The notes beneath the pieces were generated by a model. That model was not told the DNA's origin, did no database searches, and was given only the letters and a program-made list of their open reading frames with translations. The position numbers and the translations under genes were made by a program. A stretch of 64,000 nucleotides of DNA from [Limnothrix rosea] IAM M-220 (GTDB lineage Bacteria > Cyanobacteriota > Cyanobacteriia > Cyanobacteriales > MRBY01), in assembly GCF_001904615.1 (NCBI RefSeq), contig NZ_MRBY01000010.1, positions 28,060-92,059 of the forward strand. The letters run 5' to 3'. This document shows, piece by piece, positions 6,967 to 13,082 of the stretch. Position 1 is the stretch's first letter, and each line of letters starts with the position of its first letter.

Positions 6967-8409
6967 GTGGCTGAGTTAGTCTTACATTGGCATCGTCGAG
7001 ATTTACGTTTACATGACAATGTGGCTTTAACCCGCGCCCGCGCCCAATCGGAAAAAGTTGTGGGAGTTTTTTGCCTAGACCCCGGTATTTTAGACGCGGA
7101 TGATGTTGCGCCCGTCCGTGTGAAATATTTGTTGGCTTGTTTGCAAGAATTGGCAGAAAAATACCGTCATGTTGGTAGCGAATTATTAGTTTTACACGGC
7201 AAGCCCCTAGAGCTTTTACCGAAGCTGGCAGAAACCTTAAAAGCGGCAACGGTGTATTGGAATCTCGATGTGGAACCCTATGCCCAAAAACGGGATCATG
7301 ATATGGCGATCGCCCTGCGAGAGGTGGGTATCAAAGTCGAAACCATGTGGGATCAGTTGCTCCATACACCTGGAAAAATTTTGACTGGATCTAAATCTCC
7401 TTATAAAGTTTATTCTCCCTTTTGGCGGAACTGGTCGAAACAAGAAAAAGCCGATCCGTTACCTGTAATTACAGGATGTGTAGGATTAAGCCAAGCGGAG
7501 CGCAAACAATTAGGCGATTTGGCGTTACCCGAAATTCCGACGTTAGAAGACTTGGGGTTTAGTTGGGATAATCCTTTTACTGTGCCTGTCGGTGAAACAG
7601 AAGCTCTAGCGAAACTAGAAGAATTTACTGAAAATTTTATTGAAGCCTACGACGGCGATCGCAACCTGCCCGCTGTGGACGGGACATCGCGATTAAGTGC
7701 TGCCTTGAAATTTGGGGCGATCGGCATTCGTACCGTTTGGCAAGCAACCCTTGAAGCCATGGAAAATTGTCGGAGCGACGAAGCCAAAAAAGGAATCACC
7801 ACATGGCAACAGGAACTGGCATGGCGAGAATTTTATCAACACTGTTTATTCTTTTTTCCAGAATTAGCAAAGGGACCCTATCGCGAAGAATTTCAAAATT
7901 TGCAATGGGAAAATGATGAGGTGAAATTTCAAGCTTGGTGTGACGGCAGAACCGGCTATCCCATAGTCGATGCCGCCATGCGTCAGCTCAACGAAACAGG
8001 CTGGATGCACAATCGGTGTCGGATGATTGTGGCAAGTTTCCTCACAAAGGATTTGATTATTAACTGGCAGTGGGGCGAAAAATATTTCATGCAAAAACTC
8101 GTCGATGGCGACCTTTCTGCAAATAATGGCGGCTGGCAATGGAGTGCCTCCAGCGGCATGGATCCAAAGCCCTTGCGAATCTTTAATCCCGCTTCCCAAG
8201 GAAAAAAATATGATGCCGAAGCAGACTATATTCGTGAGTGGTTACCAGAAGTGCGATCGCTGGATACTAAAGTTTTAGTGACAGGCGATATTCCAAGCTC
8301 TGTGCGGGAACGATGTGAGTATCCCGAACCGATTGTGGATCACTCAGTACAGCAGCGCGAATTTAAACGACTTTATAAAATAATGAAAGATCAAAATACA
8401 AAACAATGA
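6967..8409 (+). CDS. phrA: Deoxyribodipyrimidine photolyase (class I CPD photolyase)
   Basis: A 480-residue light-driven repair enzyme that reverses cyclobutane pyrimidine dimers. The N-terminal antenna domain begins [11 protein letters not shown]. The C-terminal FAD domain carries [33 protein letters not shown] and the substrate-pocket region around [14 protein letters not shown]. Cyanobacterial members use an 8-hydroxy-deazaflavin antenna; that is family knowledge. GTG start (GTG GCT GAG), as the conserved N terminus begins there. A decayed second copy of its 3' end lies at 9457-9712, beyond the sulfotransferase gene. Confidence 0.95.
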
Positions 8410-8563
8410 TCCTACTAATATTTCTAGACATCAGAGTTCTCAAACTAGCGATCACATAAAAATACCTTAAGAGTTATGCATAGACTAAATGTAAGCTAGC
8501 ATTGGGATATGAAATGATAACTTTATGTGATTTTCTTAAACTAAATTTAGTCAAGAAATTAAT

Positions 8564-9301
8564 ATGTTCAGCAAAGCTCAATTAAAATCAATTATTGCAA
8601 ATTCAACCTATGCATTACCTGCTAGTCTGCAACAAAAAGTTCGGAGAAAAATAGATCAAGGTCGCTTTAATTGGTTTAGAACATATTTATACCAAGACAA
8701 ACAAGAGATGATGAATGAATTCCTAAAACATTCTTGTCTATTTATTCATATCCCAAAATGCGCTGGATGTTCCATTAACAATAATTTGTTCCCTGGGCTT
8801 GACAGCATTGGTCACGTTACATTGTCAGAGTATTCCCTTGTAATCGATCAAAAAGAATTTGATGACCTGTGGAAATTCACCTTTGTCCGTAATCCTTGGG
8901 ATAGACTTGTTTCTGCCTATTATTTCCTCAAACAAGGTGGTTTAAAAGGAATAGAAAAACCTTGGTTTAATGAGCACCTAGGGGAATTTTCTGACTTCAA
9001 TGATTTTGTTATAAAATGGTTATCTTCTGAGACAGTTTCAAAGCATGCTGTATTTCAAATACAGAGTCAATATATTGAACTTAATGGCAAGATCTCTATG
9101 GACTTTATTGGACGTTTAGAAAGTTTTGATAATGATTTAAAAGCCATCGCTCAGCATATTGGCCTTGGAATTGTTCATCAGGAAAGGGTTAACGTTACGA
9201 AAAAAAGACCAAAGTACCGTGATGCTTATAACACTCAAACGCGTAAAATTGTTGCAAGAGTATACCAAAAAGATATTGAAAACTTTGGATATGAGTTTTA
9301 G
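8564..9301 (+). CDS. Sulfotransferase family 2 protein (carbohydrate sulfotransferase-like)
   Basis: 245 residues. The 5'-phosphosulfate loop of PAPS-dependent sulfotransferases is seen as IHIPKCAGCSI (residues 61-70), and the 3'-phosphate motif as FVRNPWDRLVSAYY (107-120). Such proteins sulfate cell-surface sugars or small molecules; the acceptor cannot be read here. ATG start, no signal peptide. The gene is visibly more AT-rich than its neighbours and stands alone between the intact phrA end and a relic of that end, so it was probably acquired. Confidence 0.85.
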   Translation: MFSKAQLKSIIANSTYALPASLQQKVRRKIDQGRFNWFRTYLYQDKQEMMNEFLKHSCLFIHIPKCAGCSINNNLFPGLDSIGHVTLSEYSLVIDQKEFDDLWKFTFVRNPWDRLVSAYYFLKQGGLKGIEKPWFNEHLGEFSDFNDFVIKWLSSETVSKHAVFQIQSQYIELNGKISMDFIGRLESFDNDLKAIAQHIGLGIVHQERVNVTKKRPKYRDAYNTQTRKIVARVYQKDIENFGYEF

Positions 9302-9456
9302 TTAAGTATTTGTGAATTATGCCTGTTGTAGTCGTAGTCGGCAAGATTTGTAGAGGTTTAACATGTTGAAATCCTAAAAATAAGGGTTTAAAGTATATTA
9401 CATGTCTGCATCTTGATAGTTTTAACTCTATGAATAGATAATCACTGAATAGTGAA

Positions 9457-9712
9457 TTTTAGTGGCAAGGGATATTCCGAGTTTTGTACATGGGTGATGT
9501 GATTATTTAGGGCTGATTGTGTAGCGAAGGCTAGCAAGATTAGTACAAATACTCTAGGGTTGAAAAGTTGAAGATTTTTCAAAAGGTTTCGTTTACTTTG
9601 CTAGAATTTCATAGGTCTCCGACTTTGTAGCCCTAAGCTTATTGGCTTTGACGATAGATTATTCTGAACAACAAAAAGAATTTAAACGTCTCTATAAAGT
9701 AATGGAAAAAAT
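9457..9712 (+). pseudogene. Relic of the phrA 3' end, split by a short insert
   Basis: Bases 9457-9524 align without gaps to phrA 8273-8340 at about 69% identity (47 of 68). They read LVARDIPSFVHG, stop, CDYLGLIV, stop, against [21 protein letters not shown]. Bases 9657-9712 align to the last coding part of phrA: DYSEQQKEFKRLYKVM against [16 protein letters not shown]. Between them lie 132 unrelated bases. The relic has two in-frame stops and no start. Homology may extend ~25 bp further left. Confidence 0.8.
9525..9656. repeat. 132-bp insert within the phrA relic
   Basis: This interrupts the phrA tail relic. The ends are loosely inverted: 17 bases near the left end match the complement of the right end at 12 positions (AAGGCTAGCAAGATTAG against AAAGCCAATAAGCTTAG). 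This would fit a small non-autonomous transposon, but only one copy is seen in the window. Confidence 0.35.
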
Positions 9713-9756
9713 AGCGGTAAACTTTGTGTATAAGCAATATTATGATAATGACTTTA

Positions 9757-10230
9757 TCAATTCAATAACTCTTGCAGTAACGCTATTGGTCGAGCAAACT
9801 TAATATCTAAATATCGGTCTGGGTAATGCTTAAGTATGTATGACTCATATTCATACCAATGCATTTCGCCTTTTTTCTTATTACATTTCTGACAAATAAT
9901 CCAAAAGTTACGAAAATCCATTGACCACCATGGATACTGGGCACGAGGTAACTTATGATCAATAGTTTTCCCTCCACGTTTTGAGAAAAAGTCATCGCAA
10001 ATTGGACAATATTTGTCAGAATTTTCCCAAACCCACTGTTTACTTTTTTGGGTTGTACCTAACTCATAATCGCCATCTTCATATCGCCAGTAATCATAAG
10101 CACGGTATTTTTCGAAGTCTTCTGCTGTAAGGCGGTGATAGCGTTTCTTGCCAATTTTATCGGCGAGCCGAAATAGTCCTTGAAGTTCTTGGCCTAGATG
10201 TTCTGAACCTTGTTGTGATTTATCAGACAT
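9757..10230 (-). CDS. HNH endonuclease domain protein
   Basis: 157 residues. A zinc-knuckle HNH fold is visible: CPIC (Cys75, Cys78), the catalytic DH pair (Asp91-His92) in TIDHKLPRAQYP, Asn108 in the central position, and CQKCNKKKG (Cys113, Cys116, Asn117). The N-terminal 70 residues are charged and match nothing I recognise. It is the last gene of a tight three-gene minus-strand run; only 6 bases separate it from the preceding gene. Role unknown: DNA nicking or cleavage is inferred from the fold. HNH genes of this size occur in phage, defence and intron contexts, and nothing here decides between them. Confidence 0.85.
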   Translation of the reverse strand: MSDKSQQGSEHLGQELQGLFRLADKIGKKRYHRLTAEDFEKYRAYDYWRYEDGDYELGTTQKSKQWVWENSDKYCPICDDFFSKRGGKTIDHKLPRAQYPWWSMDFRNFWIICQKCNKKKGEMHWYEYESYILKHYPDRYLDIKFARPIALLQELLN

Positions 10231-10236
10231 TTCTAG

Positions 10237-10611
10237 TTATGTTCCTGTAAAGTCAAAAATTTCAACATCATCATCTGGAAATAATTTGTCAACAGAGTCA
10301 GCAATCTCTTGGTTAACTTGATTTAGTCGTTCTTGGAAATCTTGAATCTCTTTTTTTGTTTGATATTTATTTCCTATTCGATCTGCATCTATAAATAATT
10401 CTTCGAGGGTGACATCTTCTACTGATTTAAGTAAGTTGATCTGTTTGAGTTTTTCGTACAGCTGAATGACTTTCGCCCAGCCTATATTTCTATACCCTTC
10501 TGTTTTTAGTTGATGCTGCTGTTTTTTTGACAGTGCATTTCTATTAATTTTATTTTCTACTTGTAAGTCTCGATAGCTTTTGTTTTGATAAAGCTTTTTC
10601 TTTCGTGCCAT
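10237..10611 (-). CDS. Uncharacterised basic/helical protein, middle gene of the HNH cassette
   Basis: 124 residues, not recognised. The N-terminal third is strongly basic (MARKKKLYQNKSYRDL). The middle holds NIGWAKVIQLYEKLKQINLL. The last part is helical and acidic, ending DDDVEIFDFTG. No catalytic motif, membrane segment or signal peptide. The gaps to both neighbours are under 10 bases, so it is almost certainly co-transcribed and may act with the HNH protein. AT-rich like the other two. Confidence 0.7.
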   Translation of the reverse strand: MARKKKLYQNKSYRDLQVENKINRNALSKKQQHQLKTEGYRNIGWAKVIQLYEKLKQINLLKSVEDVTLEELFIDADRIGNKYQTKKEIQDFQERLNQVNQEIADSVDKLFPDDDVEIFDFTGT

Positions 10612-10620
10612 GTTATTGCT

Positions 10621-11067
10621 TTACCCTTGTGTTTTACTAAACCATTTTGCTAATTCTCTACGGATTTCACTATCTTCAAATTTTAGTAACTGTTTCATAT
10701 CAAGAGATAAACGAAGGCGAATTTGATCGATATAAGTTTTTAGTGCCTTATTATCTTTCTGTAGTTCGCTATTAACTTCTGTTAATTCTTGGTTTTTTGA
10801 GGTTAAACGTAGGCTTTTAGTTTTAAGTTGCCTATTGACTTCTTGGGTTAGAGTGACTTCCTTTGTTCTTTTTGTCACCATGCCTTTTTGGGCTGCTTGT
10901 AATCTTTGTCGTTTATAAAGTTCTTGTCCTGCAAATGAGGAGGAAGCACGTCGGATGATTAATTCATCTGGATTTAAACTGAAGTCGATATCGACTAATG
11001 CTCTACTTGCATCTGCTTTTGTCCATCCTTCTGTTACTAATAACTGAATTGCTTCGGCTTTTTTCAC
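10621..11067 (-). CDS. Uncharacterised coiled-coil protein, first gene of the HNH cassette
   Basis: 148 residues, not recognised. The N terminus (EAIQLLVTEGWTKADASRAL) looks like a small helical, UBA- or HTH-like bundle. A basic segment, RQRLQAAQKGMVTKRTKEV, follows. Residues ~75-120 form a likely coiled coil rich in Glu, Leu, Asn and Lys. The C terminus is helical. It opens the operon, so a DNA-binding or assembly role for the HNH protein is possible but inferred. ATG start. Confidence 0.7.
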   Translation of the reverse strand: MKKAEAIQLLVTEGWTKADASRALVDIDFSLNPDELIIRRASSSFAGQELYKRQRLQAAQKGMVTKRTKEVTLTQEVNRQLKTKSLRLTSKNQELTEVNSELQKDNKALKTYIDQIRLRLSLDMKQLLKFEDSEIRRELAKWFSKTQG

Positions 11068-11202
11068 AATTTTGATTTAGAGGTATCAAAGTTTATGTGT
11101 AGATCATACCTAATGTGGATGGACTTCCTGTAAAGATATGAATAAGTCTATTGAGTAAGGGTTAGGCTGATGATGATTTGTGGGCTACAGGGATTGTTAT
11201 TT

Positions 11203-12012: not shown

Positions 12013-12870
12013 TTAGTTGATAATGATGTCGATATCTACGTCTACATCTGGATTATTATCCCGATCATCGTAAAGGTAGTCATCGTAGGAGCGGTAACGA
12101 TAAATTTCCTCGTAGGCTCGGCTCGATAATTCGACAACCATTAGATCATACCAAAAGCCATCTGCTGTCTGTAATTCTGCTAATCGATTCTGGCAATCGT
12201 AATAACTCAAGACACCACAAGACCAAGATAAAAGTGATGTGAGATTGGTGCGATCGCCGTCAGGGAAATACCAAGAACTACCAAACCGCGCATTTTCACC
12301 GTTGGGGTAGTACCAAGTGCGTCCAAAAGTGGCTTTTTTACCGTTAGGGTAATACCAATTATTACCAAACTTTGCCTTGCGTCCGTTGGGGTAATACCAA
12401 GAATTGCCAAACTTTGCATTACGGCCGTTTTGCCACTCTAAAACCGTATTATTTTCGTTGCGATAAAGTTCCGGTAAGTTACACAAAACCTGCTGAAATC
12501 CCGACACTTCCGACGCAGAGTTGCTATAGGGGGAATGGGCGATCGCCAACCGCGCCAAAATCGTTGCATCAACACAATCTTCCGAAGCTGAGGCAGGCGG
12601 CACAGAAATTAAAACAGGATCAACAGAACGACGGCGAGACGAATAATAAGAATTTTCTTGCACACAATACCGATATTCCAACGTAGCAAGTTCTCGAGTA
12701 CGAAACTTCGTTTGAGCACGATAATTACGAACCTGCTCACAGGTGCGGAGACTAGGGTAACTGTATTGCTCAGAGAAAATAACCTGTCCTTGGACCACAG
12801 CTGAATTGCCGCCCATAAGACCCAATACCATGGATCCAAACACCCAGCCTTTGCACCATAAACTTTTCAT
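12013..12870 (-). CDS. Secreted repeat protein with YPNG-x-x-A-x-FG units
   Basis: About 285 residues, not recognised. The preferred start is the ATG at 12870 (MKSLWCKGW), which gives a hydrophobic signal peptide ending near SAVVQG. The frame is open to 12915. After a region with Tyr- and Arg-rich sequence come four consecutive 14-residue units of the form WYYPNG-x-x-A-x-FG-x-x. The C terminus is Tyr/Asp-rich, ending DVDVDIDIIIN. The unit is aromatic and Gly-rich like a small beta-hairpin repeat, and recalls MORN-type repeats only loosely. Probably exported; function unknown. Confidence 0.65.
   Translation of the reverse strand: MKSLWCKGWVFGSMVLGLMGGNSAVVQGQVIFSEQYSYPSLRTCEQVRNYRAQTKFRTRELATLEYRYCVQENSYYSSRRRSVDPVLISVPPASASEDCVDATILARLAIAHSPYSNSASEVSGFQQVLCNLPELYRNENNTVLEWQNGRNAKFGNSWYYPNGRKAKFGNNWYYPNGKKATFGRTWYYPNGENARFGSSWYFPDGDRTNLTSLLSWSCGVLSYYDCQNRLAELQTADGFWYDLMVVELSSRAYEEIYRYRSYDDYLYDDRDNNPDVDVDIDIIIN
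12257..12424 (-). repeat. Four 42-bp in-frame tandem repeats
   Basis: Four exact-length 42-bp units (starting 12257, 12299, 12341, 12383), each beginning CCGT on the plus strand, encode the 14-residue YPNG units of the secreted protein. The two central-right units are the most alike, indicating recent unit copying. The length is a multiple of three, so unit gain or loss keeps the frame. Confidence 0.9.
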
Positions 12871-13082
12871 GCCATTAATCCCAATGAACGCTTGCACCTC
12901 ACCTATATCCGCCACTTTAAACTAAAAAAATGCTCTCTAGGTTTCCAGACGCAGCCCAAAGAAAAATGTTCATGCACATGAATTCTTTTAGCCCTGCCTA
13001 AATGGTGCGGAAACCCCGCCGTTTACAAAGCAGAATCAAGCCCTGATAATGGATTGAGTACTTTTTATCCTATGGCAATTCT

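Follow-up and report, generated by a model that had tools for sequence, protein, structure and literature searches.

HNH effectors that have partners are already known, among them Septu, which combines the ATPase PtuA with the HNH protein PtuB, and retrons with an HNH protein (TIGR02646). We analyzed a window, a stretch of 64,000 nucleotides from the cyanobacterium [Limnothrix rosea] IAM M-220, in which three adjacent genes encode a coiled-coil protein (P3), a small two-part protein (P2), and an HNH endonuclease. As in Septu and the retrons, an accessory HNH gene lies beside partner genes, and the HNH core of the trio matches PtuB models (1.6e-9). However, the defining partners of both systems are absent. 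There is no adjacent PtuA-type ATPase, and neither P2 nor P3 scores above threshold with an ATPase model of PADLOC or Pfam. Likewise, the HNH protein reaches only 17 bits against the retron HNH cut-off of 52.15, the trio has no reverse transcriptase, and its partners are instead the coiled-coil protein and P2.

Other described proteins resemble single parts of the trio. The best PADLOC match is to the candidate PDC-M01B and involves the HNH core alone (residues 71–138; 2.2e-11), whereas the PDC-M01B models span 210–366 positions, mostly about 280, and neither P2 nor P3 is matched by any model in PADLOC. No known anti-phage system of PADLOC-DB 2.0 was recovered, the HNH core being the sole component matched. 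McrA, Cas9, and Cap5 are alike in the predicted HNH fold, but neither an RNA guide nor a nucleotide sensor nor a modified-base reader turned up. RuvA modestly resembles the P3 head in fold, but the trio has neither RuvA domains I–II nor a RuvB-like partner. Cyanophage portal-type proteins with a C-terminal extension have the tail of P2 in common with the trio; their remainder is portal and, unlike the trio, they have no P2 N-domain and no HNH. We found no published description of the trio in a search whose reach excluded most subscription journals.

We tentatively favor, at slightly less than even confidence, the view that the cassette moves horizontally and specifies a single tripartite HNH nuclease, most likely acting against phages or other invading DNA. 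For the trio we infer the formation of a complex, its docking partners, a DNA target, and a role in defense. Cyanobacterial immunity has been little explored by experiment.

Conservation and chromosomal setting of the trio

All three genes lie in the order P3, P2, HNH on the minus strand (table 1), and their ORFs are in one common reading frame. The first-pass annotation had claimed operon-like packing within an AT-rich patch, and both points are borne out: ORF coordinates give spacings of 9 and then 6 bases, and the G + C content of the trio is 35.2% versus a mean of 45.2% (SD 3.3) across tiles of the window. In 2000 shuffles of the region (4000 strands), three ORFs of at least 120 aa occurred on 0 strands and one such ORF on just 30.

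Table 1. Features of the trio and its surroundings, in window positions.
Feature	Positions	Strand	Description
P3	10621-11067	-	GTG start, 148 aa, coiled-coil protein
P2	10237-10611	-	124 aa, small two-part protein
HNH endonuclease	9757-10230	-	157 aa
P2 tail, residues 63-124	10240-10425	-	also within portal-type proteins of cyanophages and in other large proteins of phages
HNH N-terminal element, residues 14-46, ELQGLFRLADKIGKKRYHRLT	10093-10191	-	resembles P2 tail
Accessory hotspot	8410-11202	no strand	between photolyase-like gene and S4/YlmH-like gene
51-base copy of photolyase 3' end, 75%	9657-9707	+	original at 8338-8388; adjoins cassette

The trio is a conserved functional unit and no chance neighborhood. 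A search of species genomes with the HNH protein yielded 33 loci, 57–69% identical and in cyanobacteria only, and P3 and P2 lie upstream with their order kept in 32 of them. At the exception (L010), the P3/P2 end has decayed, leaving an intact HNH frame and a truncated P2 but no P3; at L017, the gap between P3 and P2 is about 200 bases. Full-length P3, P2, and HNH occur in the identical 10 of 386 cyanobacterial genomes (G000, G047, G076, G082, G090, G156, G177, G216, G291, and G341), never separately, and the trio is also present on an Acaryochloris plasmid. Co-occurrence, on which the grouping had been staked in advance, thus survived this comparison. Values of dN/dS in six close pairs range from 0 to 0.37 for P3, P2, and HNH, and all three are under purifying selection.

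Genes flanking the trio are common to close relatives and vary between lineages; in the window, they encode a sulfotransferase and an S4-domain protein. The trio is missing from five siblings of the window's own genus. In three of these siblings, the photolyase-like and S4/YlmH-like genes are nearly adjacent, and in the two others the hotspot is occupied differently (one phosphoesterase-like gene, one desaturase-like gene). The hotspot is accessory and carries signs of horizontal transfer. The diverged 51-base copy of the photolyase-like gene is a probable remnant of transferred DNA. The sulfotransferase gene separates this copy from the original, an arrangement that suggests stepwise acquisition of the patch. 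Elsewhere in the window, four 42-base tandem repeats (12257–12429) encoding WYYPNG-type units lie in the gene at 12013–12915, and siblings have them too. XisI-like genes are found beside or near the cassette at L020:5924–6274, L024:3121–3459, and L032:5571–5909.

An HNH nuclease in an accessory hotspot, with related cassettes at many sites, is also what a selfish homing-type cassette that spreads by cutting its empty site would present. We regard this as highly improbable because there is no fixed target site and neighbors differ between loci; homing nucleases are not known to require two conserved partners.

The first-pass annotation had proposed both an accessory or mobile unit and a function in defense. 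Variable neighbors, the hotspot, and plasmid carriage uphold the former, and the latter draws no support from the neighboring genes. We compared 101 cassette neighbors with 85 random ORFs from a few related genomes, counting PADLOC matches per family and not per gene. The neighbors gave 13 PADLOC families with at most 3 members each, and the random ORFs gave 48, chiefly Cas1 and methyltransferase models matching one member each. Cassette neighbors are therefore no richer in known defense genes than random ORFs, and the trio does not appear to be part of a defense island, although the evidence is weak because the control is small. This lack of enrichment weakens the case for a role in conflict.

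Anatomy of the three proteins

The HNH protein is a member of the HNH endonuclease family PF01844 (27.7 bits versus a gathering score of 21.4) and has a weak Pfam match to Endonuclease_7. Its HNH site had been read as intact and is so, with C75/C78, D91-H92, N108, C113/C116, N117, and H124 invariant in 19 aligned sequences. The predicted model matches the HNH domain folds of McrA, Cas9, and Cap5 (Z 3.1–5.2), and its alignment to the Cas9 HNH (Z about 5.2) is a modest score for a small fold. In the mechanism that we propose, this protein would be the cutting subunit.

P2 had been called basic, a description that does not hold for the whole protein, which is neutral (22 K/R versus 21 D/E; pI 7.8); P3 is more basic (pI 9.85). 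The charge of P2 is split between a basic N-half (16 K/R to 4 D/E) and an acidic C-half (6 to 17). The N-terminal domain (residues 7–58; YRxxQxxN...GYRNxGW) is basic, helical, and common to several forms of the cassette. The acidic tail (LEELFxxADRIGNKY...FPD..DF) is restricted to the form found in the window, form I. When P2 was modeled alone (mean pLDDT 71.5), the N-domain was confident and the tail was not, and fold searches against the PDB and viral models gave no convincing match. P2 may act as an adaptor, and because its N-half is basic, the N-domain probably contacts DNA.

P3 consists of a small helical head (residues 1–48; "type A"), a coiled coil (about 50–120), and a conserved C-terminal motif (DSEIRxxLxxxF). 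In the model, the head bears a modest resemblance to RuvA domain III and UBA domains (together, Z 3.7–6.2 over 38–48 residues). For RuvA domain III, Z is 5.2–6.2 and rmsd 2.1–2.6 over 45–48 residues of a common small fold; Pfam gives no sequence match for the head. We suggest that P3 may serve as a scaffold built on its coiled coil, with an exchangeable head (UBA/RuvA-domain-III-like in this case) that senses or binds something. In Anabaena sp. FACHB-1237 (L036:3819–4529), P3 opens with an XisI-like segment that replaces the usual head, in a manner resembling a gene fusion.

Together with the weak Endonuclease_7 match, the likeness to RuvA raises the alternative of a host DNA-repair or recombination nuclease, in which an HNH/endonuclease VII-like activity works with a RuvA-like partner. 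This alternative is improbable, as the matched region of RuvA is a small and common UBA-like fold and the window's form is found in just 10 of 386 genomes, in variable places and also on a plasmid.

The partners had been described as belonging to no recognizable family, and searches agree. Neither P2 nor P3 passes any cut-off in Pfam or NCBIfam, PHROGs give nothing below 0.03, and in PADLOC nothing matches even at an E of up to 1. No family match supplies a function for either protein, and a modification gene for self-protection was not found. The partner families are below threshold in these four collections, and the cassettes now have a definition precise enough for further searches and tests.

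The first-pass annotation had called for structure prediction of the trio as a complex. Because P3, P2, and HNH are in one frame, we could fold them as a single chain, with the native short linkers, stops read as glycine, and 30 sequences. In this model, the P3 head is confident (pLDDT >90) and the HNH protein is mostly at 60–90, but no interface is confident. With a pTM of 0.32, we therefore claim no interface. A sequence search of solved structures gave no significant match.

A wider family of cassettes

Sequence comparisons place the trio in a larger family of HNH cassettes, with about six forms among which P3 heads and P2 types have been recombined. Searches with the P2 N-domain led to further cassettes with a coiled-coil gene before P2 and an HNH gene after it. 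Form I comprises the window's cassette and its relatives, with type-1 P2 and P3 heads of type A (as in the window) or type B. Form II (L052–L060, L062, and L063) has type-1 P2 with another P3 and HNH, and form III (L049 and L050) is also a type-1 P2 cassette. Form IV (L163–L166 and L132) has a type-A P3 head, an unrelated type-2 P2, and another HNH. Type-2 P2 is joined to another P3 in form V (L168), and HNH comes first in form VI (L176 and L179). Type-2 P2 occurs in 9 of 386 genomes, although one of these occurrences is doubtful; a match in G321 was rejected because it falls within a long unrelated frame.

Between cassettes with type-1 P2, P2 profiles (hhalign E 2e-15) and HNH cores (4e-11) are homologous. 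The profile comparison of form I and form II P3 was negative, which leaves position and motifs read by eye as the only links between the two. The differing combinations of type-1 P2, type-A head, and type-2 P2 imply that parts have been recombined between cassettes. Within form I, type A and type B heads alternate over a common C-terminal half of P3, and the tree requires five changes, with weakly supported inner branches. This pattern suggests repeated swapping of A and B heads and also allows a single origin.

Four plasmids carry form II cassettes, and among the plasmid-borne cassettes one adjoins a type I restriction system, another VapC. On the Euhalothece plasmid pEu2 (L129:1–5860), genes for HsdS, HsdR, and an SprT-like metalloprotease are followed on the same strand by a form II cassette, the single case of a cassette next to HsdS/HsdR on a plasmid. 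In Gloeothece, a form IV cassette has a minor capsid gene, BRO, and a helix-turn-helix regulator in its vicinity.

A role in conflict is consistent with the patchy distribution of the cassettes, their differing locations, their carriage on plasmids, and the swapping of parts.

An element common to P2, the HNH protein, and phage proteins

In form I, the tail of P2 clearly resembles the N-terminus of HNH (hhalign E 1e-6, probability 91%). The local score between P2 and HNH was matched by at most 2 of 200 shuffles in 22 of 33 loci, versus 1 of 32 for the P3–HNH control. In form II, P2 and HNH are alike at their C-termini (E 1.5e-4, a moderate signal), and in form IV the likeness of P2 to HNH is weak. 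This related short element makes it probable that P2 and HNH dock on one kind of site, for which P3 is the simplest candidate.

A shared element could also be expected of a toxin–antitoxin system in which P2 or P3 neutralizes an HNH toxin and the P2 tail mimics the HNH N-terminus, competing for a partner. The small, tight operon and patchy distribution would suit such a system. We nevertheless judge it quite improbable because three genes are conserved, not two, and the decayed locus L010 keeps its HNH frame intact with P3 gone and P2 truncated.

The form I P2 tail also occurs in five IMG/VR contigs. One carrier is a Phage_portal_3 protein and another a Portal_Mu protein; of the remaining three, two are very large and one is small. 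The portal-type carriers fall into two Pfam families (PF06381 and PF06074), and a cyanophage portal-type protein is 45% identical to the P2 tail over 51 residues. The form II P2 tail is found in a Nodularia phage protein encoded next to terminase and portal (nine records, E 2e-9). A viral match in L082 was rejected as chance similarity within another phage protein. Weak profile matches of the P2 tail in other cyanobacterial proteins were rejected as well.

These occurrences raise the possibility that the trio belongs to phage or satellite biology, as a packaging-type HNH nuclease with helpers that was left by, or serves, prophage-like elements. Such an origin would explain the tail common to P2 and portal-type proteins. 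HNH proteins of phages are often associated with packaging, P2 tails are in portals of two families and in the Nodularia protein by terminase and portal, and the Gloeothece cassette has phage-like neighbors. Conversely, 50,697 phage records hold no relative of HNH, the P2 N-domain, or P3, searches of IMG/VR by HNH or P2 profile returned no whole cassette, and ordinary chromosomal genes surround most copies. We therefore consider a phage or satellite origin unlikely.

If the trio is instead a tripartite nuclease against invading DNA, cyanophage portal-type proteins with the P2 tail may target the site that P2 and HNH use, as a trigger or a decoy. The presence of the tail in phages suggests that this site plays a part in infection. 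A broader and doubtful proposal is that the cassettes form a superfamily of modular tripartite cyanobacterial HNH nucleases. Their P3 heads and P2 types would be swappable, P2 and HNH would dock via related elements, and the P2 tail of cyanophage portal-type proteins would sequester the scaffold or be sensed by it. Were the tail truly used for docking by a host nuclease and by phage head proteins alike, it would offer a direct handle on phage recognition by a cyanobacterial nuclease or on its evasion by phages.

Phage-contig proteins of more than 1700 aa (L104:2–5110 and L106:2–5998) carry the element, and the L104 protein has no Pfam or PHROG match. In the cyanophage proteins at L125:5673–7082, L080:3294–6443, and L081:2991–5960, a Cys-Gly...Cys motif precedes the P2-tail element, an arrangement that virion proteins may have in common.
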